Shown in pieces: positions 1,380-12,600 of a stretch of 59,415 bases of DNA. Under the pieces are notes generated by a model, which had not been told where the DNA came from, made no database searches, and saw only the letters and a program-made list of their open reading frames with translations. Positions within the stretch are counted from its first letter, which is position 1, and every line of letters begins with the position of its first letter. This DNA comes from Gemmatimonadota bacterium (lineage in GTDB: Bacteria; Latescibacterota; UBA2968): positions 1 through 59,415 of the forward strand of contig VXRD01000105.1 in assembly GCA_009838845.1 (NCBI GenBank), read 5' to 3'. A program made the position numbers and the translations under genes.

Positions 1380-1452
1380 GGTGAAGTGAGAAGTAGGAAG
1401 TGTGAAGTGATAGGACCCGTCATCGCGACATGGTTTTGAGCCGCGATCCAGA
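1380..1452. repeat. Dispersed repeats: GTGAAGTGAGA stretch plus REP-like hairpin
   Basis: Bases 1380-1411 are built from GTGAAGTG/AGTGTGAAGTGA units of the kind also found near 15.35, 21.1, 25.8, 33.3 and 49.3 kb. Bases 1419-1451 are a reverse-strand copy of a roughly 32-base hairpin element (arms ATCGCGGC and CGCGAT) that recurs at 15172, 15316 and 55423. Both lie in the gap upstream of the MFS gene. No coding content. Confidence 0.7.
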
Positions 1453-1510
1453 AGTTTTTGCCTGTCGTTAACGCCAGTAATCCAGTAAAATCAATACTTG
1501 TAATAAACGA

Positions 1511-2260
1511 TCAATCCCCAACCAAAGGTTGAAAATCCTCACTCTCCATCGGTTCATATCCATCCCAACGACCGCACATTTCAACCAAAACGCGCTGTGT
1601 CATCGGAGAAGGTGGGGGATTGACCCTCACCACATGCGCCGTGTACTCACCGGGCGATTCGGTCATTGCCCTCGCCATCTCGGAAACGAGATAACGCGGG
1701 GTCCAGCCAATCATGTGGTAGTCCGTTGTCTGGAGTTGCACGGCCAGACCACTCACTGGATTGGTCAGTTCCAGTGTTACATAAAGTTCTTCTCCCGGCT
1801 TCAGCGCATTCAGTCGTTCTTGCGCGGGGAGGCTTGTGTGTCGCCATCCGTGCAGGAAAAATCGACAGACAAAACTTCCATCTTTGGCTTTGACCAGTTT
1901 TGGAAAGACCTCGTAATCGTCGGTTACCCGATAGCCACCGCTTACCGATAGCATCTCGAATGGATCGGCACTTTCAGGTAGGTCAAGTCGCTGAACATGA
2001 TCGGCGAAGTCCGGTCTGTTCGGTTTCATAACCCGGTTCTGGAACAGGTAAAATAGTGCTGAGGATCGGTAATCTCTATGCAGTTGAGGAAAGCTTGGAA
2101 GGGGCGGATATTTCAACTCTTGCTGTGCTCGCACAGCCCCGCCCGTATAGCGAAAGCGATACTCCGGAAGCTCGACATCTGCATCCAGCCGACCAATCGG
2201 GAACCATTGATGGCTCCGCACTTTGTCCTGCCACGCCAGGAATAAAGTTTTTGTGCTCAT
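1511..2260 (-). CDS. HipA N-subdomain-like plus HIRAN domain protein
   Basis: A 249-residue protein with two apparent parts. Residues about 1-100 (WFPIGRL, Y-F-Y, then LFYLFQNRVM and RPDF) resemble the N-terminal subdomain that precedes the kinase core in HipA proteins. Residues about 105-200 resemble a HIRAN domain: KPGEEL (154-159), LTNP (165-168) and GWTPR (185-189) fit the family pattern of a conserved Gly-Glu, an Asn-Pro and a G-Y/W-x-P turn. HIRAN domains bind single-stranded DNA ends in helicases and damage-response proteins. The ATG follows the kinase stop by one base, with AGGAGA upstream, so the two are co-transcribed and probably translationally coupled. A split HipA resembles HipBST, but the HIRAN fusion is unusual. 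The domain calls are from motifs only. Confidence 0.65.
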   Translation of the reverse strand: MSTKTLFLAWQDKVRSHQWFPIGRLDADVELPEYRFRYTGGAVRAQQELKYPPLPSFPQLHRDYRSSALFYLFQNRVMKPNRPDFADHVQRLDLPESADPFEMLSVSGGYRVTDDYEVFPKLVKAKDGSFVCRFFLHGWRHTSLPAQERLNALKPGEELYVTLELTNPVSGLAVQLQTTDYHMIGWTPRYLVSEMARAMTESPGEYTAHVVRVNPPPSPMTQRVLVEMCGRWDGYEPMESEDFQPLVGD

Positions 2261-2261
2261 A

Positions 2262-3149
2262 TCAGATAAGTCTCCTCAGTTGTTCACAATTATAGTTCAT
2301 CAGCGCAATCGCGAATGTGCGGGCTGAGGACGTCATCCAATCAGTGGGTACGCGATTCACAATTTTAGACAAAGAATCCTTGTCGAATTTCTCCAGTTTC
2401 AAAATTGCCGGTTGAAAAAGGTCTGGATAGGTGGGGGCCGCACGTCGTACTAACTCCAGCGGACTGGAGCCATGTCGCTCGTCTTCTGACCAGTAAATTG
2501 CACCGCGTCCTCTTTCCGCATAGTCTCCTACGCGATTCTCGACCATCAGCCTGTCGCGGCGTTCATCCCGAAGTTCCCGGCCCAGCGATGATGCGTGGTC
2601 ATAAGACGGTGCTATGAAACCCTTCCCTTCATCACCTGCCCGCCGCCGAAGTATGCCCCAGTTCTCGTGATGACGGTCTGTGTTACCAATTATAGCATCC
2701 AGTACTAAATACTCCGCGAATAGGAGTTTAGCATTTTCGGTAGCTTCGGGTTGCTCGAAGATACGCTCCAGTGCCAGCCAAATATTCTTCAGTGTATGAT
2801 GCGAATGGTGGAATCTCGCCGTTGGATCGTAATCCTCTATCGTTATTTCCAACAACTCATTACCGTGGAACAACTCCCGACCCCCAAGAGCAAACGATTC
2901 TGTCACCGAACCGCGCTCACCTTGAAACTCCGCCAATTCTACCTTCGCGTGTGTAATCCCTATCACAGAGGCAACCTCGGCGGCTATCTTCTCTGCCCAG
3001 TGTTCTCCTGTGTTTGGTCGAGGGTGCTTGAATAGCCAGTTTGTATTATCATCAGGCTTACTATACCAGAACTTCGTTTTACCCCCCATTTCCTCAGGGT
3101 TAATAACCCATTCTGGTTCTACTATAACTATTGGGTATTCGTCAGACAT
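2262..3149 (-). CDS. HipA-like protein kinase (C-terminal kinase domain)
   Basis: A 295-residue protein with the HipA kinase core and no N-terminal subdomain of its own (E. coli HipA is about 440 residues). GNTDRHHENW at residues 155-164 is the HipA catalytic loop, with D158 the likely catalytic Asp and N163 a metal ligand; PSYDHASSLG (181-190) supplies the second metal-binding Asp, D184; K41 is a candidate ATP-binding Lys. HipA kinases phosphorylate translation factors such as aminoacyl-tRNA synthetases and act as toxins. The missing front part seems to be in the next gene (HIRAN protein). The gene upstream is a ParS/MbcA-type antitoxin, 72 bases before this start, rather than a usual HipB. 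Start chosen as the first ATG; its RBS is weak. Confidence 0.82.
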   Translation of the reverse strand: MSDEYPIVIVEPEWVINPEEMGGKTKFWYSKPDDNTNWLFKHPRPNTGEHWAEKIAAEVASVIGITHAKVELAEFQGERGSVTESFALGGRELFHGNELLEITIEDYDPTARFHHSHHTLKNIWLALERIFEQPEATENAKLLFAEYLVLDAIIGNTDRHHENWGILRRRAGDEGKGFIAPSYDHASSLGRELRDERRDRLMVENRVGDYAERGRGAIYWSEDERHGSSPLELVRRAAPTYPDLFQPAILKLEKFDKDSLSKIVNRVPTDWMTSSARTFAIALMNYNCEQLRRLI

Positions 3150-3219
3150 GCGTCAGTTCCGATTCTCTATCAACATACGCAATACGCCTACACCTGCACA
3201 ATTCGCCAGGCTGTCAGCA

Positions 3220-3714
3220 TTATGAAAATACCCCGTACTCAATGCGTCCCAGAAGGTCTTCAACTTCTCGAGCACCTGGTTCGGTATCTGCATAATCCAG
3301 TGGAGAAACGCTGCCAAGAGCAGTTAATGGCGTTACAAACCATTGACGAGCAACTTCCTGTCCTCCCAGAACCTCGACAGCCCGATCATATAGCAGACCA
3401 ATACGCAGTAGGCGTTCCGATTCATCGATATGCAACCGTCCTTCTTTTTTTCGATGTGTCAGTGTATGTACCGCAATTTTAGTTACAGTAGCCAGAGCTT
3501 GTTCAGAAATGCCCATAGCATTTTTTAATACGTCAAATGTCGCTACTGGCAATCCTTCTTTTATTGCTGCAATCATTTCAGATCGGTTTTCAAAACGCCA
3601 TCCTGCCGATGTCGCATAAGTTGTCGTCTGTCCTTCTGCGATAACCGAAGCACCATCTGCTGTTCGAAATCCCGTTGATGTCCATCTCCAGACTTTCAAT
3701 TGTTGAGTTTTCAT
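3220..3714 (-). CDS. Xre/MbcA/ParS-family (DUF2384) antitoxin
   Basis: A 164-residue protein. Its C-terminal third (residues about 100-164) ends in TEPGAREVEDLLGRIEYGVF, the signature of the antitoxin toxin-binding domain (DUF2384), preceded by the WF-x-TP and PLDY elements. Residues about 50-85 fit the family's helix-turn-helix. The ATG at 3714 has AGGAGG seven bases upstream, so the longer reading to 3759 is rejected. Family members normally neutralise RES-domain NAD-degrading toxins; here the downstream partner is a HipA kinase, and no RES gene is present. A second copy of this gene's last 50-60 bases lies at 6448-6508. It probably represses its own operon, as the family does. Confidence 0.85.
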   Translation of the reverse strand: MKTQQLKVWRWTSTGFRTADGASVIAEGQTTTYATSAGWRFENRSEMIAAIKEGLPVATFDVLKNAMGISEQALATVTKIAVHTLTHRKKEGRLHIDESERLLRIGLLYDRAVEVLGGQEVARQWFVTPLTALGSVSPLDYADTEPGAREVEDLLGRIEYGVFS

Positions 3715-4139: not shown

Positions 4140-4334
4140 TCAAATATCGTTGTACATCTCAGGGTCTGGATCAATTTCCACGACTTTGCCATCGCGCCTG
4201 ACCACAACTTTGGTACCGGTCTGGTGCGCGATCAGGTGTGCGCGTTTAGCGGCTCGTATAAGCGCGGCAGGTGCCGCTTGCATGTCGGGATCGTCCAGTT
4301 TGGACACAGGGATTTGATGTTTTTCTTTTTTCAT
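4140..4334 (-). CDS. Small antitoxin-like protein
   Basis: A 64-residue protein with LDDPDMQAAPAALIRAAKRA in the middle, followed by TGTKVVVRRDGKVVEIDP. The pattern of an Ala-rich helix then a Thr-Gly-Thr-x-Val-Val-Val strand is common in short uncharacterised proteins encoded beside PIN or RelE-type toxins in cyanobacteria and planctomycetes; that recall is from memory and has not been searched. It lies 18 bases downstream of the PLD/ATPase gene and 91 bases upstream of the AbrB-like antitoxin, on the same strand. No specific function can be assigned. Confidence 0.55.
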   Translation of the reverse strand: MKKEKHQIPVSKLDDPDMQAAPAALIRAAKRAHLIAHQTGTKVVVRRDGKVVEIDPDPEMYNDI

Positions 4335-4352: not shown

Positions 4353-6392
4353 TCAGGGACGATAACTGAGCAAACTCTTTATTTTATTCAGTTTGCCAGG
4401 CGGGTAGAGAGAGTGGCCTATGAATTTCTGCAAGCTGGTTTTATTCAAAATCGTCGTGTCGCCGTGGCTGGCGTCCTGGTCAATTAAGGTAGAGGGAACA
4501 TCTTCCCAGTTGAACGCACGTCTGCCAAAGGCATCGCGTGGTTCCCAGACGATGACTTTCTCTCCGTCAATCGTCCATCCTTTGGACGCATCGCCTTCTT
4601 TTTTTACATAAGATGCTGGACGCAATAGACTTTCGAGGGCTGCTTTAACTCTGTCGTATCGCTTTTCCGCATAATTTTGCCAGGTTATTTTGCGGCACCA
4701 TTGGGGCGGTGTTTTGCCTGTTCCTTCAGATATGATGTCGCTTATAACCTGAGATGAAATTGCCAGCCAATCGTCCGGGAGATGACCGGGGGCCATGCGA
4801 TCCATAATTTCTACGAGGTATCGTTTATAGAGATGTCCCGTCAGACTGTTACGTATCTTCTGTACATCGCCTTGCAAACGCTGCCGGGTTTCCTCTTCGT
4901 GAGAGGGCAGTGCAGTCGTGGTGTATATCATCAGGCTGCGTTTAACGATTTCGTCGGGAAATGATTGGGGTTCGGCATTCATTGCGAGTATGAAGCACGG
5001 ATATTCGGAAACTGGGGGCTGTAGTTCCTCTTTGATCATGTCCTTGCCGTACTGGTTGAAGGCGCGTTGTCCTATATCATCAAACACAACGGGAAAGCGT
5101 TTGTACGACGCTTGCAATCCGCGAAGTCGGGATGTGGTGAAACTCCGTTTTTCCACTGTGTTGGTGCAACTGAACATGGATGTCATAAGCGTATCAATCA
5201 GGCTGGTTTTGCCGCAGTTGGATTTGCCAAAGACGATGCCAAAGGAAGGAAAGCGGACCACATCGCTGTCTTGCACCAGGGCAAGTGACCGCATGTCGCA
5301 CATGAAGGGGGAGAAATACAGCCACGCCATCAAGGTGAAGTAATCCCGTTGCAGCCGTTTTACATCTCCCTCAAAGGCGGCGTAGTTCTCGAAGTATTCC
5401 AGGAGCAGACGCGCATCTGTTTTTACCGAATCGCTATCCCATTCCAGCGGGAATACATCATCCGATAGGGTGGCCTGGCGCGTGGTTCTGTCGATATGGA
5501 AGTTGCGCGTATCGACTTCTTCGGCTGACTTGACGAGGACCACGCGATTTATCTGGCGTTTGATGTTCTGGGTGATGCGTTGCTTCCCATTGCGTATGGG
5601 AGGCATGACCGATGATAGCGCAGGACCAAGAGAGGCAAGTACCTTCTCTACGCGCTCTACCTGAACCGGAAAGGAGGTTTCGACTTCATCGGGGGCAGGT
5701 GGCTCAATTATAAGGGTGGCCGGTCCATTGTTTATAGATGGGGTTTCCTGAATTTCTATTTCTGATCGCGTTATTTTCTCATCGGGTATCTCGATTTCGT
5801 CTGATGCGGAGTCCCGGATGGTGTTGAACATATTGTTGTAGTGTTCCCAGGCTTTCTCATCATTATCGAACATGACCAGTGTCTCTGGTTGGTCGCCGGA
5901 AAATGCTCGTTCCGAGAGGTTGGCAGATCCGATTATTACTCGCTTTCCGCCATCCGAATTGGATAGCAGGTAGAGTTTTGCGTGGGCTATGGACTTTCTC
6001 AAGACTCTGAAGTGGGCTTGTCCCGAATGTACTTTTTCGAGAATTTGTATGTGCCGTTCGTCTTTGAGGTTCATGATTGCGGCGCGAGTATCGCCGACCA
6101 CTGTTTTCTGAAACGCGAGAATGTCTTTCATGTCGCGGATGATGCCTTCATAGCCGAATACGCATTCGAAGGTCGTGAAAGCGTATTTATCGAGCATTCT
6201 AAGGATGGCATCCACGCTTACTGAATAGGTCAATACCCGCAGGCTGTCGAATCCATCGAATACGTCCCAGTCAAATTTCTTTTCTGAGTTGAATTTCGCG
6301 CTGACCACACGAAGGCCACTTCCGTCATCAATTCCGAATGATATCTGGCTCTCGCTGGAGTCGTCGAACAGCATATTTTGCTGAGTATCCAT
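4353..6392 (-). CDS. Phospholipase D-like nuclease fused to P-loop ATPase
   Basis: A 679-residue protein from the ATG at 6392 (GGAGA nine bases upstream); a start at 6443 would add 17 residues. Numbering from 6443: residues about 60-210 form a PLD-like domain with one HKD motif, H154-x-K156 and IGSANLS (171-177). Residues about 395-515 form a P-loop NTPase: Walker A GKSNCGKTS (406-414), Walker B VVFDD (452-456), then a conserved FILAMNAEPQ segment. Single-HKD proteins such as BfiI act as dimers and cut DNA, so nuclease activity is plausible. The 5' leader is homologous to that of the HipA gene, and a second broken copy of the 5' end lies at 7949-8053. No named system matches; a defence function is an inference. 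Confidence 0.72.
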   Translation of the reverse strand: MDTQQNMLFDDSSESQISFGIDDGSGLRVVSAKFNSEKKFDWDVFDGFDSLRVLTYSVSVDAILRMLDKYAFTTFECVFGYEGIIRDMKDILAFQKTVVGDTRAAIMNLKDERHIQILEKVHSGQAHFRVLRKSIAHAKLYLLSNSDGGKRVIIGSANLSERAFSGDQPETLVMFDNDEKAWEHYNNMFNTIRDSASDEIEIPDEKITRSEIEIQETPSINNGPATLIIEPPAPDEVETSFPVQVERVEKVLASLGPALSSVMPPIRNGKQRITQNIKRQINRVVLVKSAEEVDTRNFHIDRTTRQATLSDDVFPLEWDSDSVKTDARLLLEYFENYAAFEGDVKRLQRDYFTLMAWLYFSPFMCDMRSLALVQDSDVVRFPSFGIVFGKSNCGKTSLIDTLMTSMFSCTNTVEKRSFTTSRLRGLQASYKRFPVVFDDIGQRAFNQYGKDMIKEELQPPVSEYPCFILAMNAEPQSFPDEIVKRSLMIYTTTALPSHEEETRQRLQGDVQKIRNSLTGHLYKRYLVEIMDRMAPGHLPDDWLAISSQVISDIISEGTGKTPPQWCRKITWQNYAEKRYDRVKAALESLLRPASYVKKEGDASKGWTIDGEKVIVWEPRDAFGRRAFNWEDVPSTLIDQDASHGDTTILNKTSLQKFIGHSLYPPGKLNKIKSLLSYRP

Positions 6393-6447
6393 TTTTCGCA
6401 ATTCTCCGTTGAAGCACGCATCACTTTTGCGATATGCCTGCACACTA

Positions 6448-6508
6448 GGCTATCAGCATCATGAAAATATCCCGTACTCAATGCGTCCCAAAGGGTCTTC
6501 AATTCCTC
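6448..6508 (-). pseudogene. Relic of the ParS antitoxin 3' end
   Basis: These bases match the last codons and stop region of the intact antitoxin gene (3209-3270) with about 7 differences in the first 57 positions, counted by eye. In the matching frame it reads EDPLGRIEYGIFS then TGA, the DUF2384 C-terminus. Weaker similarity continues past the stop towards the start of the PLD/ATPase gene, as it does towards the HipA start in the intact copy. The rest of the antitoxin gene is absent: the symporter's 3' end occupies that side. Confidence 0.8.
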
Positions 6509-7958
6509 ACATAAATTTTTTAATTTTTCCGCTTTTCAGGCGTGCAAAATATGAATCCATTTCATGCTTGACGATGGGTGCCAGGAAATACAGCCCCAAA
6601 ATATTCGGCACACAAATCAAAAACACCAGCGCATCGGAAATATCCAGCAGGGGCCCCAATTGCACCATGCATCCCAAAACAACACAGAGGCAAAAAATGA
6701 TTTTGTACGCGTTTTGCCTGTGTGCGCTTTCACCAAACAAATAGGTCCAACCTTTTAATCCATAATAGGACCAGGAAATCATCGTGGAAAAGGCGAATAG
6801 CACAGCGGCAAAAGCCAGCGGAATGGGAAACCACGAAAATTGTCGCTCAAAGGCCACAGACGTCATGGCCACGCCCGTTGCGTCGCCAGCAAAATCGGGT
6901 GCGATAACCTGCGTTGTGGCAATGACCAGAGCGGTGATGGTGCAGATGACGATGGTATCAATAAAAGGCTCCAACAACGACACAATCCCTTCTGTGATGG
7001 GCTCGTTTGTCTTGACCGACGAATGGGCAATAGCGGCCGATCCAATGCCGGCTTCATTGGAGAACACCGCGCGTTGGAAGCCGATAATCATCGTTCCCAA
7101 TACGCCGCCAGCGACACCTTCGCCGGTGAATGCGCCCCCAAAGATGTTGCCGATGGCGACGGGCAGTGCCGATGCGTTGAGCAGAATTGTGATAAGAGAA
7201 AAAAAGCAGTAAAGGACCGCCATAGAAGGGACGACTTTTTCTGTAACCCTGGCGATAGATTTAATCCCTCCGATAATCACGGCAAAGACCACTGCGCCTA
7301 AAATAATACCGACCAGCCAGCCCAGTCCGTCCAGCATTCCGCCGGTCATGTGGTTGAGTTGCACATACGCCTGATTGGATTGGAACATGTTGCCTATGCC
7401 CAGTGCGCCTATTGCAATCCCCATTGCGTAAAAGCCGCCGATCAGTTTGCCAAAGCTGTCCATGCCGCGGGCTGAAAATCCTTTTCTGAGGTAGTACATC
7501 GGACCGCCCGAAACCGAATGGTCCGGGTTTTCATTGCGGTATTTGACGCCCAGCGTGCATTCAATGAACTTTGTGGACATGCCCAAAAAGCCCGCTACAA
7601 TCAGCCAAAATGTCGCCCCTGGTCCGCCAACGGTTACCGCTACTGCGACGCCACCGATGTTGCCGATGCCGACAGTTCCCGCCACTGCTGTGGCCAGTGC
7701 CTGCAGGTGGGAGACTTCGCCTTTGCTGTTGGGGTCGGTGTAGTCGCCGCGCACCAGTTGGAGGGCATGCTTGAAGCCGCGGATACCAATGAAGCCGGTG
7801 TAAAAAGTAAAAAATACTGCGCCAGCGACAAGCCACAACACCACCAATGGCAACTCCGCGTCAGCCACGGAAATTTTAAAAAAGACAAACTGACCGATCA
7901 CCTCCGCAATTGGCGCAGTGGCATTGTTAATGGTCTCGTCAATTCCTAATGCCTTCAT
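6507..7958 (-). CDS. Sodium:alanine symporter (AGCS family)
   Basis: A 483-residue membrane protein of the alanine or glycine:cation symporter family. It shows the early VVLWLVAGAVFFTFYTGF helix, the TAVAGTVGIGNIGGVA segment and GGPMYYLRKG, all typical of AGCS carriers, with about ten transmembrane segments. It imports amino acids with Na+ or H+. The ATG at 7958 starts MKALGIDETINN; it lies inside a broken copy of the PLD gene's 5' end, so the first codons appear to come from a recombination junction. No clear RBS is visible. It is a metabolic gene embedded among toxin-antitoxin and defence-like genes. Confidence 0.87.
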   Translation of the reverse strand: MKALGIDETINNATAPIAEVIGQFVFFKISVADAELPLVVLWLVAGAVFFTFYTGFIGIRGFKHALQLVRGDYTDPNSKGEVSHLQALATAVAGTVGIGNIGGVAVAVTVGGPGATFWLIVAGFLGMSTKFIECTLGVKYRNENPDHSVSGGPMYYLRKGFSARGMDSFGKLIGGFYAMGIAIGALGIGNMFQSNQAYVQLNHMTGGMLDGLGWLVGIILGAVVFAVIIGGIKSIARVTEKVVPSMAVLYCFFSLITILLNASALPVAIGNIFGGAFTGEGVAGGVLGTMIIGFQRAVFSNEAGIGSAAIAHSSVKTNEPITEGIVSLLEPFIDTIVICTITALVIATTQVIAPDFAGDATGVAMTSVAFERQFSWFPIPLAFAAVLFAFSTMISWSYYGLKGWTYLFGESAHRQNAYKIIFCLCVVLGCMVQLGPLLDISDALVFLICVPNILGLYFLAPIVKHEMDSYFARLKSGKIKKFM

Positions 7959-8053
7959 AGCTGAATACACATCCGAAGGTCGTGAAAGCGTATTTATTGA
8001 GCATTCTAACGATGACATATACGCTTACTGAATAGGTCAACACTCTCCGTTGA
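7949..8053 (-). pseudogene. Relic of the PLD/ATPase gene 5' end, internally deleted
   Basis: Bases 7949-8040 align without gaps to 6142-6233 inside the intact PLD gene, with 8 mismatches in 92 bases by eye. The match then jumps: 8044-8053 (TCTCCGTTGA) equals 6403-6412 at the start of the PLD gene, so 168 bases of coding sequence between them are missing. On the left the match stops at the symporter start codon. Confidence 0.85.
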
Positions 8054-8061
8054 CAAATGCA

Positions 8062-9552
8062 TCAATTTGTCAATTCAGCCAATCTGTTTCTGCCATTTTC
8101 CGTAATTTGGTACTTCTGCAACCGACTTCCCGGTTTTTCTGGAATCGTGTATTTGATCAATCCGTCTTTTCTCAATGCGCGAATCACTTTGTTGAGCTGT
8201 CCTGACACGGTTTTTTGACCCAGGCCGGTTGAGACGGACGATTTCGACAGGGGAGCCTGGATAAGAAGTGACAAAACTCTCTGCTCAAGACTTCCTTGTC
8301 GTGACTCTGGCTGTGACTCTGGCTGTGACTCTGGCTGTGACTCTGGCTGTGACTCTGGCTTAGCCTTGATTTGCTCTGGAATTGTCGGGTATCTGTAGGG
8401 CACTTGTTCGGTGACATGCGGAGTTATCTGTCCGCCATGTTCAACCTGCCGTTTGAATGTTGTGACTACCCAATTATCCGAGACCTCAATCACGGGTTCT
8501 TCTACCCCGTAGTCACGGCACTCCTGTCGGATGCGCCGGATGCCGCTGCCGATCTGCTCTACCATTCCCATGCGGTGGAACATTCCGAATAGAAGGGGAT
8601 TTCGTGGTACGCTTCTGATCCCCAAATCTTTCTCTCGCATTCCCGCTGGCAACCCGCCCGGTGTGACGATTTCCAGTCGATCATGAAATATGTGTACCTG
8701 CACCTTAGCGTTAGAGCGATAGTCTCGATGCGCGATGGCGTTGACCATTGCCTCGCGGAGTGCATCCTCTGGTAGTTCAAGTCGTTCATCTCGTCCGCGA
8801 GCGTGGGGGATGAGGGCTGTGTTCAATTTCGCCTGCATGTAGGCTATACAGTCGTCGTAGATGGAACATATATCGCCCGTGAAGTTCTTGAGGTCGATGA
8901 TATGCGTATTGGTCGTGCCGCGAAGAACCGCGCAAGTCACGCCCGCTGTCAATGTGTAGCGTGTGATATCTTCCGCTAATAGCCACGCGCCCGCATGGGT
9001 CATGATCCCATTTTCAAGCAAGTGCAGGTTTTCCAATGCCACGATTGGGTCCATTCCGTCGGGAATATGCGCCCGCTTGGCGAACCGCGCCCAGGCTTCT
9101 GGCGTCAGGTCTTTATCTATTTTGAAGTTATGGCATGGTGTTTTGTCGAATCGAATGAGTCCTTCCTTAAAAAAGAATTCGCGGATTTCGTCGCGTGACA
9201 TTTGTTGCGAACTCGCGCCTTCGCGGATGTAATATTTGCCGCCAAAGGAGTAGGGCTTGCCATGTTGCTCTGGTATTGTGATGCAGAGTACGTCATTGAC
9301 AGACTCCGTTTCCACTGCTATCGGCGGATCCGCTGATCGCGCGATGGACTGGACTTGCGACTTCAGCTTGTTGTGGTTCGCAATACCAACGATTTCGCCA
9401 TGGTCTGTTACGCCGATCAGAATGATGCCGCCAGTCGCGTTCGCAAAGGCACAGATCTCACAGCCCAGGTTAGAGGACATGGAACGCTTGAACTCTGTGG
9501 TAAAACCTTCGCCGAGAGCGGTCAGGTCGTGGAGTGAGAAGTTTGAAGTCAC
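8062..9552 (-). CDS. AlbA_2/Schlafen-domain ATP-binding regulator
   Basis: About 496 residues from a GTG at 9552; a TTG at 9600 gives 512, but it overlaps a relic. The N-terminal part (FTTEFKRS, CAFANATGGIILIGV, KYYIREGASS) is an AlbA_2/Schlafen-type domain. The middle (LREAMVNAIAHRDY, then EIVTPGGLP) is the GHKL-like ATP-binding C-terminal domain usual in this family. The last 90 residues form a winged helix (VSGQLNKVIRALRKDGLI). A QPES four-residue repeat, encoded by five 12-base units (8301-8360), links the two. Such proteins are common accessory regulators, and some Schlafen-like members take part in phage defence. Target unknown. Confidence 0.75.
   Translation of the reverse strand: MTSNFSLHDLTALGEGFTTEFKRSMSSNLGCEICAFANATGGIILIGVTDHGEIVGIANHNKLKSQVQSIARSADPPIAVETESVNDVLCITIPEQHGKPYSFGGKYYIREGASSQQMSRDEIREFFFKEGLIRFDKTPCHNFKIDKDLTPEAWARFAKRAHIPDGMDPIVALENLHLLENGIMTHAGAWLLAEDITRYTLTAGVTCAVLRGTTNTHIIDLKNFTGDICSIYDDCIAYMQAKLNTALIPHARGRDERLELPEDALREAMVNAIAHRDYRSNAKVQVHIFHDRLEIVTPGGLPAGMREKDLGIRSVPRNPLLFGMFHRMGMVEQIGSGIRRIRQECRDYGVEEPVIEVSDNWVVTTFKRQVEHGGQITPHVTEQVPYRYPTIPEQIKAKPESQPESQPESQPESQPESRQGSLEQRVLSLLIQAPLSKSSVSTGLGQKTVSGQLNKVIRALRKDGLIKYTIPEKPGSRLQKYQITENGRNRLAELTN
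8301..8360 (-). repeat. 12-base tandem repeat, five units (QPES linker)
   Basis: Unit GACTCTGGCTGT repeated about five times without interruption inside the Schlafen-type gene. It encodes the repeated peptide QPES between the ATP-binding part and the winged helix. Unit length is a multiple of three, so changes in copy number would alter the linker length and not the frame. Confidence 0.9.
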
Positions 9553-9582
9553 TGCTGTTTGCTCTTTCGTGTAAGTCTCGTT

Positions 9583-9632
9583 ACATAAACGGTCAATCAA
9601 CCAAAGATTGGAAATCCTCGCTCATCATCGGG
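9583..9632 (-). pseudogene. Relic of the HIRAN gene 3' end
   Basis: On the minus strand this reads RMEKCPMMSEDFQSLVD then TGA, which aligns with the end of the HIRAN protein (RWDGYEPMESEDFQPLVGD, stop at 1511). Similarity runs about 10-15 bases past both stops (GATTGAcCGTTTAT against GATTGAtCGTTTAT). It lies directly between the nuclease-STAND gene and the Schlafen-type gene. Only about 18 codons survive. Confidence 0.75.
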
Positions 9633-9690
9633 CACTTTTCCATTCGATATAATGCCCGTATTCTTTTTCAAGTAGGCTGGTGGACGCATC

Positions 9691-12600
9691 TCATCGTCCG
9701 AACCAGGGACCTGTACTCCGCACAGTCTTGCGGCATAAAAAGTGCTGGTCCAGTTTGTCACCAATATTTCCCTCTCGGTTCTTCATGGCTGTCTTCAAGT
9801 TTGACTTGTTAAGTTGAAAATGGTTTATCTTGCGCTGAAAAAAATCTGTCGAATCATCAGCGGTCTTCAAGTCTTGATATATCCACACCCAGGCGCGACG
9901 ATCAGCAGAGTGCAAAAACAGTACCCAAGCTGCGTAAGCCTCGGCGGGATCGCAAGCGTTGAGAAAAGCTCGCCACCAGTGGTGAGCGCATGCTTCAATC
10001 CATCTATGGCGTGCTGATCTCATAGTAAAATTTGCGTGGGTTGTCCTGATCTCACTATCTGGCCAGGCTCCAGCTACAGGTAGTGAATTGTTCGCAGAAA
10101 AACCTGACAGCACTTCCGCTCGGCGGAGATGCCAAACGAGTGCTGACGCTCGGTCTTTTTTTATTATAGTGTCAAGCCAATCGGATTTCCCATTATACGA
10201 CGCAGTGATTGCGAGTTCAAAAAGCTTCTGGTCGTTATAACAGTATTCTAATCCAACTAATTCTTCTCGGAGTCTCATTATTTCTGGCGAATCCGGCCCC
10301 TTAAAGGCCATGTGCATAAGACGTTCCACATCTACTTCACCAATGTATCGCATTCTCAGAGCCGAACGCAACTTATGCCACAAACGCGTCCCTTTCTCAG
10401 GTGCATAAGTAAGCAAAGCCTCGCAAAGTACCAAAAAGAAATTTTCGGCTGCAAGACCGTAATGAGAAACCTCCATCATCTCGAAATAGCTCTCAAGCTG
10501 TTGTTCCACTATATCCATTGCATGCTTAAAGACCGGTTTGAAATCTTCTGAGTCAATTCTGATGTTTTCAGTAAAGGATCCCGGACCGAGTTTTTTAGCT
10601 GCCAACCGAACTTCAGTGGGAATAGTGCCACGTCTGCGAATGGCGTTTAACAATTGCCATGGTGCCAGTCGTGGTGCAAGTTCGTCAAAAGGGATATCTG
10701 ACGTGGCTTCGATAAGGGCACTCGTTCCATAGTGATTTACATAAATGTTCTCACCCGGACTCCAGGACCAACCCTCATCCACAAGAGTCCGACCGAATCG
10801 TACCGGATTTGCACAGGCCAGAATCTCAAAGGCCCATCTACGAAAATCTCCTTCTTGCTTTTTCACAAAACTCTCGACCCATGACCAAGCATTATCTGTG
10901 AGTTCGACTGGGGAACTCGATAGCAAGATAAGCAAAACACGTTGTTTAGAGGACGAACAGGTAGCGTAACGGGTAATTAATGCGTCAATATCCTCCCGTG
11001 ACGGGCGACGCAAAACTTTACAGAAGTCGAGCGAAAAATCTTCCAAGTCTGATTGAAGCAATAGATCAAATTGAGACTGTGCATCCAGGCTTTGAAACTC
11101 CATCAACAAAAGTCTCTCTGTGACATGGGCATCAGTATTCTCGTTATCACTTTCGCTGATCAAGCGCAAATTTCGCACCGCTTCTATTTCGGCCTCGTCC
11201 GCCAGAATAAGGTGATTGGTCGCAAGAATGGCTCTCGACTGTCGAAATTCTGGCGGACAGGTGGATAGATTCCGCATCTTGCGACGAATCAAATCCGCCA
11301 GCAGATCAGGCGCACAACGCGCCAGTACTGGTTCGAGGACTTCAAAGTCGTGATCCTCGCTGGTGAGACCCATAACCCTGTCCAGCTTTTCGACATCTAT
11401 GTGCTCCGCTGTCTTACGAAGTTCGGCTATAAAAGTATCTGGAGGCTTGAAGTTCGGGTCAAGCCATAACTCTTTGGTCCGTTGCACGCGATAGGTCAAA
11501 GACAATTCTGTATCAGCAAGAACAATTTCCGCGTGGCGTCGTTCCAACGGAAACCAGCTTTGGCCAGGCTTTTGTAGATAGTCTTTCTCGTAAGAGAACA
11601 GGCGGTCCAGGTCAGGATCAATATCCACTGCTTTGTCTTCGTCAGCATTGTGTCCGGTGAGTCTGAGCAGAAGTGAAGCGACGCTCTTCGGGAGATCCGG
11701 GTGTATGCCCGGTTCCACGGGTCGGAAAAGGATTTCTTCAGACAAGTTCCGCAAAGCCTTCACTGTGTCGTCGGGATCAACTTCGTTAAGCAGGCAAATC
11801 CACTTCAGGCCATCCCAACTCTCGCTTTGGCCCCTGACTGCTAAGGCGATGGCTGCTATCTCGAAAATTGGCAGGGCTTTAGACAGTGGAAAAACTTCAA
11901 TAATTGAAGGCACAGTAGTTTGCCAGGCGCCAAAACCGGTATCGTGATCAACCAAATCAAGTTCAACACCGCAGACTTTAATGCGTTGCGAAGAGTCGAT
12001 ACCAATCAAGTTTTTCAGTCGATCTGAGCGTCGCTTGTCGCGCTCTTTATTGGCATTTGGTTGTGTATCGACATCACGGGATACAATACTCATCCAACGC
12101 AGAGATCGCTGGATAATTTTGGTAAAAGCTGTAGTGTCCTTTTTGGGAATATTGCGTAGCGCGTTCACAGCCCAAAATCGGGCAGAATCATAAACGTAAC
12201 TGTCTGAATGCTCAATCGCATCAAGTAGCGCATCGGGGAAATTTGGAGCGAGGTCCGCGAGTTCTTGCCGGTGTTCATCGGAAACATTCTGGCTTTGCAA
12301 CCACGCCGTGACGAGCACTCCAGGAATGAGTGACTCTGCTGCACGTCCCTGCTCCACTAAGATTGATACTGCCGCACGCAGGATTTCCGCTCTTTCATCA
12401 AGACCCGAAATGGGGTCAAACCATTCTGCCAGCCTGGCATTTAGAGTTTCAAAAGTTGGCGAGACTTCTTGATTGAGGTCATTCAGAAGTGCAGCACCGA
12501 GGGCATGTGCTACGACTGCGGGAGTAAGTTGCACATTGCTTGATGAGTCAGCGGTAGTGAACGGACCATCAATAATGTCGCTAAGCCTTGCATAGACCTC

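Follow-up and report, generated by a model that had tools for sequence, protein, structure and literature searches.

A hipIN kinase-HIRAN pair beside a probably orphaned ParS antitoxin gene in a Latescibacterota genome, with relatives placed upstream of hsdR

The hipIN module comprises a gene for a short HipA-family kinase, HipI, followed by a gene for HipN, in which a HipS-like part is joined to a HIRAN domain, and it has been classed as a putative bicistronic toxin-antitoxin module (Gerdes, Baerentsen & Brodersen 2021, PMC8262856). Pairs of HipI and HIRAN proteins near defence genes were also recorded in the 2025 diDNase paper (PMC11706625), and PADLOC lists the pair as the defence candidate PDC-M03. 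In the literature searched, we found no mention of PDC-M03 by name and no experiment on any hipIN. The hipBST module resembles hipIN in that the kinase is split from the part corresponding to HipS, or N-subdomain 1. However, in hipBST (order hipB-hipS-hipT) HipS is encoded upstream and has no HIRAN, whereas in hipIN the HipS-like part is fused to HIRAN and encoded downstream; moreover, the HTH protein HipB is the product of a conserved first gene, whereas hipIN has no conserved HTH gene. Among the kinase targets cited in PMC8262856 are GltX for HipA and TrpS for HipT. A different point of comparison is the E. coli prr locus (EcoprrI), which has the order hsdM-hsdS-prrC-hsdR and encodes PrrC, a latent translation-stopping anticodon nuclease held by the R-M complex (PMC3014915, PMC3874165).

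The locus described here lies near the start of a window of 59,415 nucleotides, the whole stretch of DNA analysed. An initial annotation had read three of its genes as one operon, in which a ParS/MbcA antitoxin, a kinase-only HipA and a HIRAN protein would form a toxin-antitoxin or defence type without a name. All three open reading frames were found where that annotation had placed them on the minus strand, namely the ParS/Xre antitoxin gene (parS) at 3220..3714 (164 aa), hipI at 2262..3149 (295 aa) and hipN at 1511..2260 (249 aa), the gaps being about 70 bp (ParS to hipI) and 1 bp (hipI to hipN). The protein calls also stood. ParS matches the profiles Xre_MbcA_ParS_C (E=1.1e-16), Xre-like-HTH (5.3e-12) and TIGR02293 (1e-30). 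HipI, a putative toxin, is a short HipA-family kinase without N-subdomain 1, matching Pfam HipA_C (4e-12) and giving no Couple_hipA match. Its catalytic loop (GNTDRHHENW) and Mg-binding motif (PSYDHASSLG, of the form P-S-x-D-H) are both kept across an alignment of 8 relatives, and the kinase has a PDB relative in CtkA (3akj, 1.5e-6).

What did not hold was the novelty of the kinase-HIRAN pair, which is the published hipIN module and PADLOC PDC-M03, already known, widespread and composed of two genes. Profile PDC-M03A matches HipI at 5e-93 and PDC-M03B matches HipN at 1.8e-76, while ParS is unmatched by the PDC-M03 profiles. The PDC-M03A match serves as a proxy for placing the kinase in clade XI of the published Hip tree. 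The initial guess of a toxin-antitoxin or defence function was right for the pair. Order, coupling and domain make-up are the same as in published hipIN, with no essential difference; the bicistronic description holds for the window, and the adjoining ParS is incidental to it. Nor does the window have the hipBST order, and its HTH gene, parS, is unconserved. The initial reading of the trio is partly supported, its headline combination being accidental.

HipN combines a HipS-like part (approximately residues 1-118) with a HIRAN domain (approximately residues 119-235) and is the putative antitoxin of HipI. Taken alone, the window protein matches HIRAN at 1e-4, slightly under the Pfam cut-off, but the domain is certain once homologues are used, being matched in 67 of 70. 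An AlphaFold2 model built from 70 sequences (pLDDT 93.7) superseded a poor one from 10 sequences (pLDDT 62), and it matched HLTF HIRAN crystal structures with a Foldseek probability of 1.00. The HipS-like part is supported by profiles and is weak sequence by sequence, including in the window HipN alone: Couple_hipA was matched in 14 of the 70 homologues (E up to 0.1, best 0.0025), and hhalign to HipS-like proteins of the genus gave 95% for the N-terminal half against 3% for the C-terminal half, used as a control. The initial call for the 249-residue protein, a HipA-N-like part joined to HIRAN, thus stands. A PDB profile search with HipN returned no match. Elsewhere in the window's own genome (contig C7; L130 1007-1806, plus strand), an HTH gene overlaps a HipS-like (Couple_hipA) gene; a second HipI-like kinase was not found in this genome.

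The pair itself is strongly conserved. A HipI profile scan with one genome per species yielded 80 loci, nearly all from metagenome-assembled genomes, of which three end at contig ends before a complete HipN; HipN lies downstream of HipI in each of the 77 complete loci. The spacing between the hipI stop and the hipN start is -4 in most loci and ranges from -13 to +3, which makes translational coupling probable. In viral sequences, all seven contigs found with HipN carry both hipI and hipN, and hipIN adjoins an integrase in a Vibrio tailless phage and in Clostridioides phage phiCDKH02.

No such conservation extends to ParS. It adjoins hipI in none of 14 close relatives (56-99% identity) and, by tblastn of the fetched loci and flanks, is next to hipI nowhere in the 80-locus set, so that ParS as a conserved partner of hipIN was rejected; only L046 carries it within the flanks, 7.4 kb upstream. 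The genes immediately upstream of hipI are diverse and include no conserved HTH gene. The commonest Pfam family at this position is HsdS (6 of 73), and ParS is not among the Pfam families listed there, single-member families not being shown. The claim of one operon consequently survives for the kinase-HIRAN pair and fails for the adjacency of ParS; homologues of the pair do occur together elsewhere, as the initial annotation had expected of all three genes, whereas the trio does not.

RES toxins are the usual partners of the ParS/Xre antitoxin family. The window ParS has the C-terminal toxin-binding domain of that family (Xre_MbcA_ParS_C) but no adjacent RES toxin, the RES gene having been deleted. 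Copies of ParS that are 93% identical occur in other settings in three sisters (L043, L044 and L045), and the one in L045 has a 4-bp overlap with an intact gene for a RES toxin (PF08808, 1.9e-29). Across the parS/res boundary, the window and L045 are 95% identical over 85 bp. The window retains a scar at 3193..3220 on the minus strand, consisting of the first ~28 bp of the deleted res, which reads on from the ParS stop as MLTAWRIVQV before its own stop and is non-working. In both the window and its closest sister (G001, locus L021), these ~28 bp of res after the ParS 3' end are followed by the hipI leader; L044 retains about 120 bp of res. G001, with a hipIN 99% identical to that of the window, is without an 811-bp stretch containing most of ParS. 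No RES gene was found in the window's own genome. Because an intact parS-res pair exists in L045, a res scar follows ParS here and RES is absent from this genome, ParS is an orphan; that it is the leftover antitoxin of a lost parS-res pair, incidental to hipIN, is very probable. Its role as a system component, as initially proposed, is contradicted by the scar and by the lack of a ParS neighbour at any other hipIN locus. A false lead, ParS as the partner of a HipA kinase, is thereby removed.

A second scar joining the parS 3' end to the res 5' end lies at 6425..6508 on the minus strand, upstream of a gene for a 696-aa protein. Each of the two scars (window 6425-6508 and 3193-3260) is followed by a different defence-type gene. 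The parS 3' sequence was considered as a multi-copy mobile element and rejected, as the genome holds just two copies, both in the window.

How ParS came to lie beside hipI can be read from the sister G004. By blastn, the window is colinear with the type I R-M island of that genome, minus hsdM, hsdS and hsdR. In order, the island carries a 696-aa PLD/ATPase gene, hsdM, a zeta-like region and ParS, followed by a DuOB-DUF488-DUF488-hsdS-1488-aa gene block, hipI-hipN, hsdR and an MFS gene. Three blocks are missing from the window (hsdM, the block between ParS and hipI, and hsdR), and the alignment blocks end at or near their borders. The empty hsdM site corresponds to window 4268..4321, where the flanking blastn blocks map to L043 5881 and 8799. 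The empty hsdR site, between hipN and the MFS gene, corresponds to window 1409..1480; here the blocks stop at L022 8488 and restart at 11867, hsdR occupying 8510-11797. A 64-aa open reading frame at 4140..4334 (minus strand) lies beside zeta/AAA_33 genes in relatives (e.g. L030/L051) and is a remnant of the island. Colinearity alone does not tell whether the window lineage lost these blocks or G004 gained them, but hsdM fragments in G002 (L049) favour loss. With either direction, the contact between ParS and hipI is a rearrangement junction, and ParS would have been brought beside hipI when a sister-like R-M island rearranged. The trio thus originated when an antitoxin outlived its toxin and a rearrangement placed it beside another module.

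Several other genes of the island deserve mention. The 696-aa protein of the window (4353-6443, minus strand) has an N-terminal NgoFVII/PLD-type nuclease domain (E 2.7e-7) and a P-loop ATPase-like region; the G004 homologue lies directly upstream of hsdM, and in G001 the gene is split by a ~590-bp deletion. It is possibly an undescribed R-M-associated defence protein. The 1488-aa protein (L022 2335-6801, plus strand) gave no Pfam or PADLOC match, and its gene immediately precedes hipI in two sisters. In G004 (L043 10378-12094, plus strand), the DuOB protein gene overlaps the ParS stop and is followed by two DUF488-type genes; together, these DuOB-DUF488 genes occupy the exact place of RES in L045.

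Among the relatives, hipIN recurs in a defined position within R-M operons. At 13 of the 80 loci, a same-strand hsdR follows hipN, starting 4-296 bp beyond it, and elsewhere in the fetched flanks hsdR occurs at only two other loci. Many of these 13 have hsdS upstream, directly so in L072 and L085, while in G004, G005 and G007 another large gene stands between hsdS and hipI. They come from Latescibacterota, Verrucomicrobiota, Gammaproteobacteria, Acidobacteriota and Eiseniibacteriota. With 15 loci labelled as R-M on the HipI tree, including L118 and L125 with weaker or hsdS-only R-M matches, the R-M state needs 14 changes. Clustering of this state on the tree was rejected, shuffled labels needing 13.8, and no single origin of the R-M placement can therefore be claimed. 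Since well-supported branches force at least 11 changes, hipIN has moved in or out of R-M repeatedly. The link is not obligatory, because about 67 of the 80 loci were not seen inside R-M operons, and the window's own hipIN does not lie between hsdS and hsdR.

In these relatives, hipIN fills the slot upstream of hsdR that PrrC fills in prr, and, like PrrC, it is predicted to encode a translation-stopping effector. In contrast to PrrC, an anticodon nuclease, hipIN comprises two genes, for a kinase and a predicted DNA-end-binding partner, and the hipIN of the window stands outside R-M. The correspondence is an analogy of position and is not evidence of the same control. In the literature searched, we found no paper describing a HipA kinase gene placed after hsdS and before hsdR, and neither the hsdR-slot organization nor the loss asymmetry described below was found in those papers; the slot, the evidence on polarity and the history of the junction are the additions made here to published hipIN.

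Losses within the pair are uneven. HipI is broken or missing beside an intact HipN at 10 loci, whereas the reverse was seen at 0 of 77, the two directions having been searched differently. Stops or frameshifts interrupt hipI in L089, L094, L105, L109 and L206, where some of the stops may be assembly or MAG sequencing errors; in L193 (Oscillatoria), hipI is disrupted by a transposase gene; in L209 (G256), it is deleted by comparison with L066; and in G008, G006 and G601, it is absent. This asymmetry fits HipI being the toxin and HipN its antitoxin, a polarity in which HipN would neutralize HipI, and it is the first genomic evidence for that polarity known to us.

As a whole, the locus is best explained by hipI-hipN forming a two-gene toxin-antitoxin or abortive-infection unit from which ParS is excluded, and we consider this explanation likely. 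The target of free HipI would be a component of translation, which family precedent suggests to be an aminoacyl-tRNA synthetase, and its phosphorylation would stop growth. HipN would block HipI through its HipS-like domain, as the precedent of hipBST suggests, and its HIRAN domain, by analogy with HLTF, may act as a DNA-end-binding sensor. DNA ends arising from phage entry or restriction could then loosen HipN and free the kinase. Given the repeated placement of hipIN immediately before hsdR, in most cases behind hsdS, the R-M-embedded pairs of relatives would probably serve as a PrrC-like fail-safe. The full chain of kinase target, HipN block and HIRAN sensing is, in our judgement, evenly poised between right and wrong. 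A stronger version is tentative and less likely than not: hipIN would be an R-M-coupled suicide kinase in the PrrC slot, its HIRAN-HipS partner sensing restriction or phage DNA ends, its kinase shutting down translation once R-M is overcome or too active, and HipN being re-usable with other effectors of the slot. The question raised is whether type I restriction is guarded by a HipA-type kinase in the manner of PrrC. A positive answer would place HipA kinases among the backup effectors of restriction.

These readings must be weighed against three others. Common strand and order, a gap of about 70 bp and an intact ParS whose HTH domain could repress read-through into hipIN would suit a genuine three-gene ParS-HipI-HipN system, with ParS as a repressor or second antitoxin like HipB in hipBST; yet, of all hipIN loci seen, that of the window's genome is the sole one with such a trio, the closest sister has a nearly identical hipIN but no ParS, and the res scar here has an intact parS-res counterpart in a relative, which leaves this reading very improbable. 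Less easily set aside, though doubtful, is an ordinary addiction or stabilization module without a defence role, in which HIRAN would do no more than tether HipN to DNA or contribute to autoregulation of the operon. The toxin/antitoxin loss asymmetry is compatible with it, as are the numerous loci that stand alone, in diverse surroundings lacking defence genes, whereas the recurrent slot before hsdR and the carriage by phages and prophages beside integrases point to conflict with phage, and PADLOC lists the pair as a defence candidate.

HipN may also do more than hold HipI, because three R-M-type loci (G006, G008 and G601) pair it with other genes: HipI is absent there, and HipN overlaps the stop of another effector-type gene by 4 bp. 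A general role of HipN as partner to R-M-embedded effectors (HipI, Fic, ABC-3C ATPase, GmrSD-AlbA_2), in place of a dedicated role as HipI antitoxin, would be unlikely, however, as there are only three cases, for each of which loss of hipI and retention of HipN is also an explanation, and in G256 and Oscillatoria HipN has clearly persisted after hipI was deleted or disrupted.

In these three loci, the 4-bp overlaps of HipN are with an ABC-3C DUF2326 ATPase gene (L139, reverse complement 7810-10319), with a Fic protein gene (L140 6626-8133) and with a GmrSD-AlbA_2-like gene named from reading its sequence (L210 5862-8866). In L035, a single reading frame (7057-11502, minus strand) joins a type IIG restriction enzyme-methyltransferase to the C-terminal half of a HipI kinase, and HipN follows this fusion gene with a 4-bp overlap (6278-7060, minus strand). 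Finally, E. coli phage 899 encodes a 519-aa HipL-like fusion of kinase, HipS and HIRAN, with matches to HipA_C, Couple_hipA and HIRAN, located between replication and portal genes (L138 2950-4509, plus strand).
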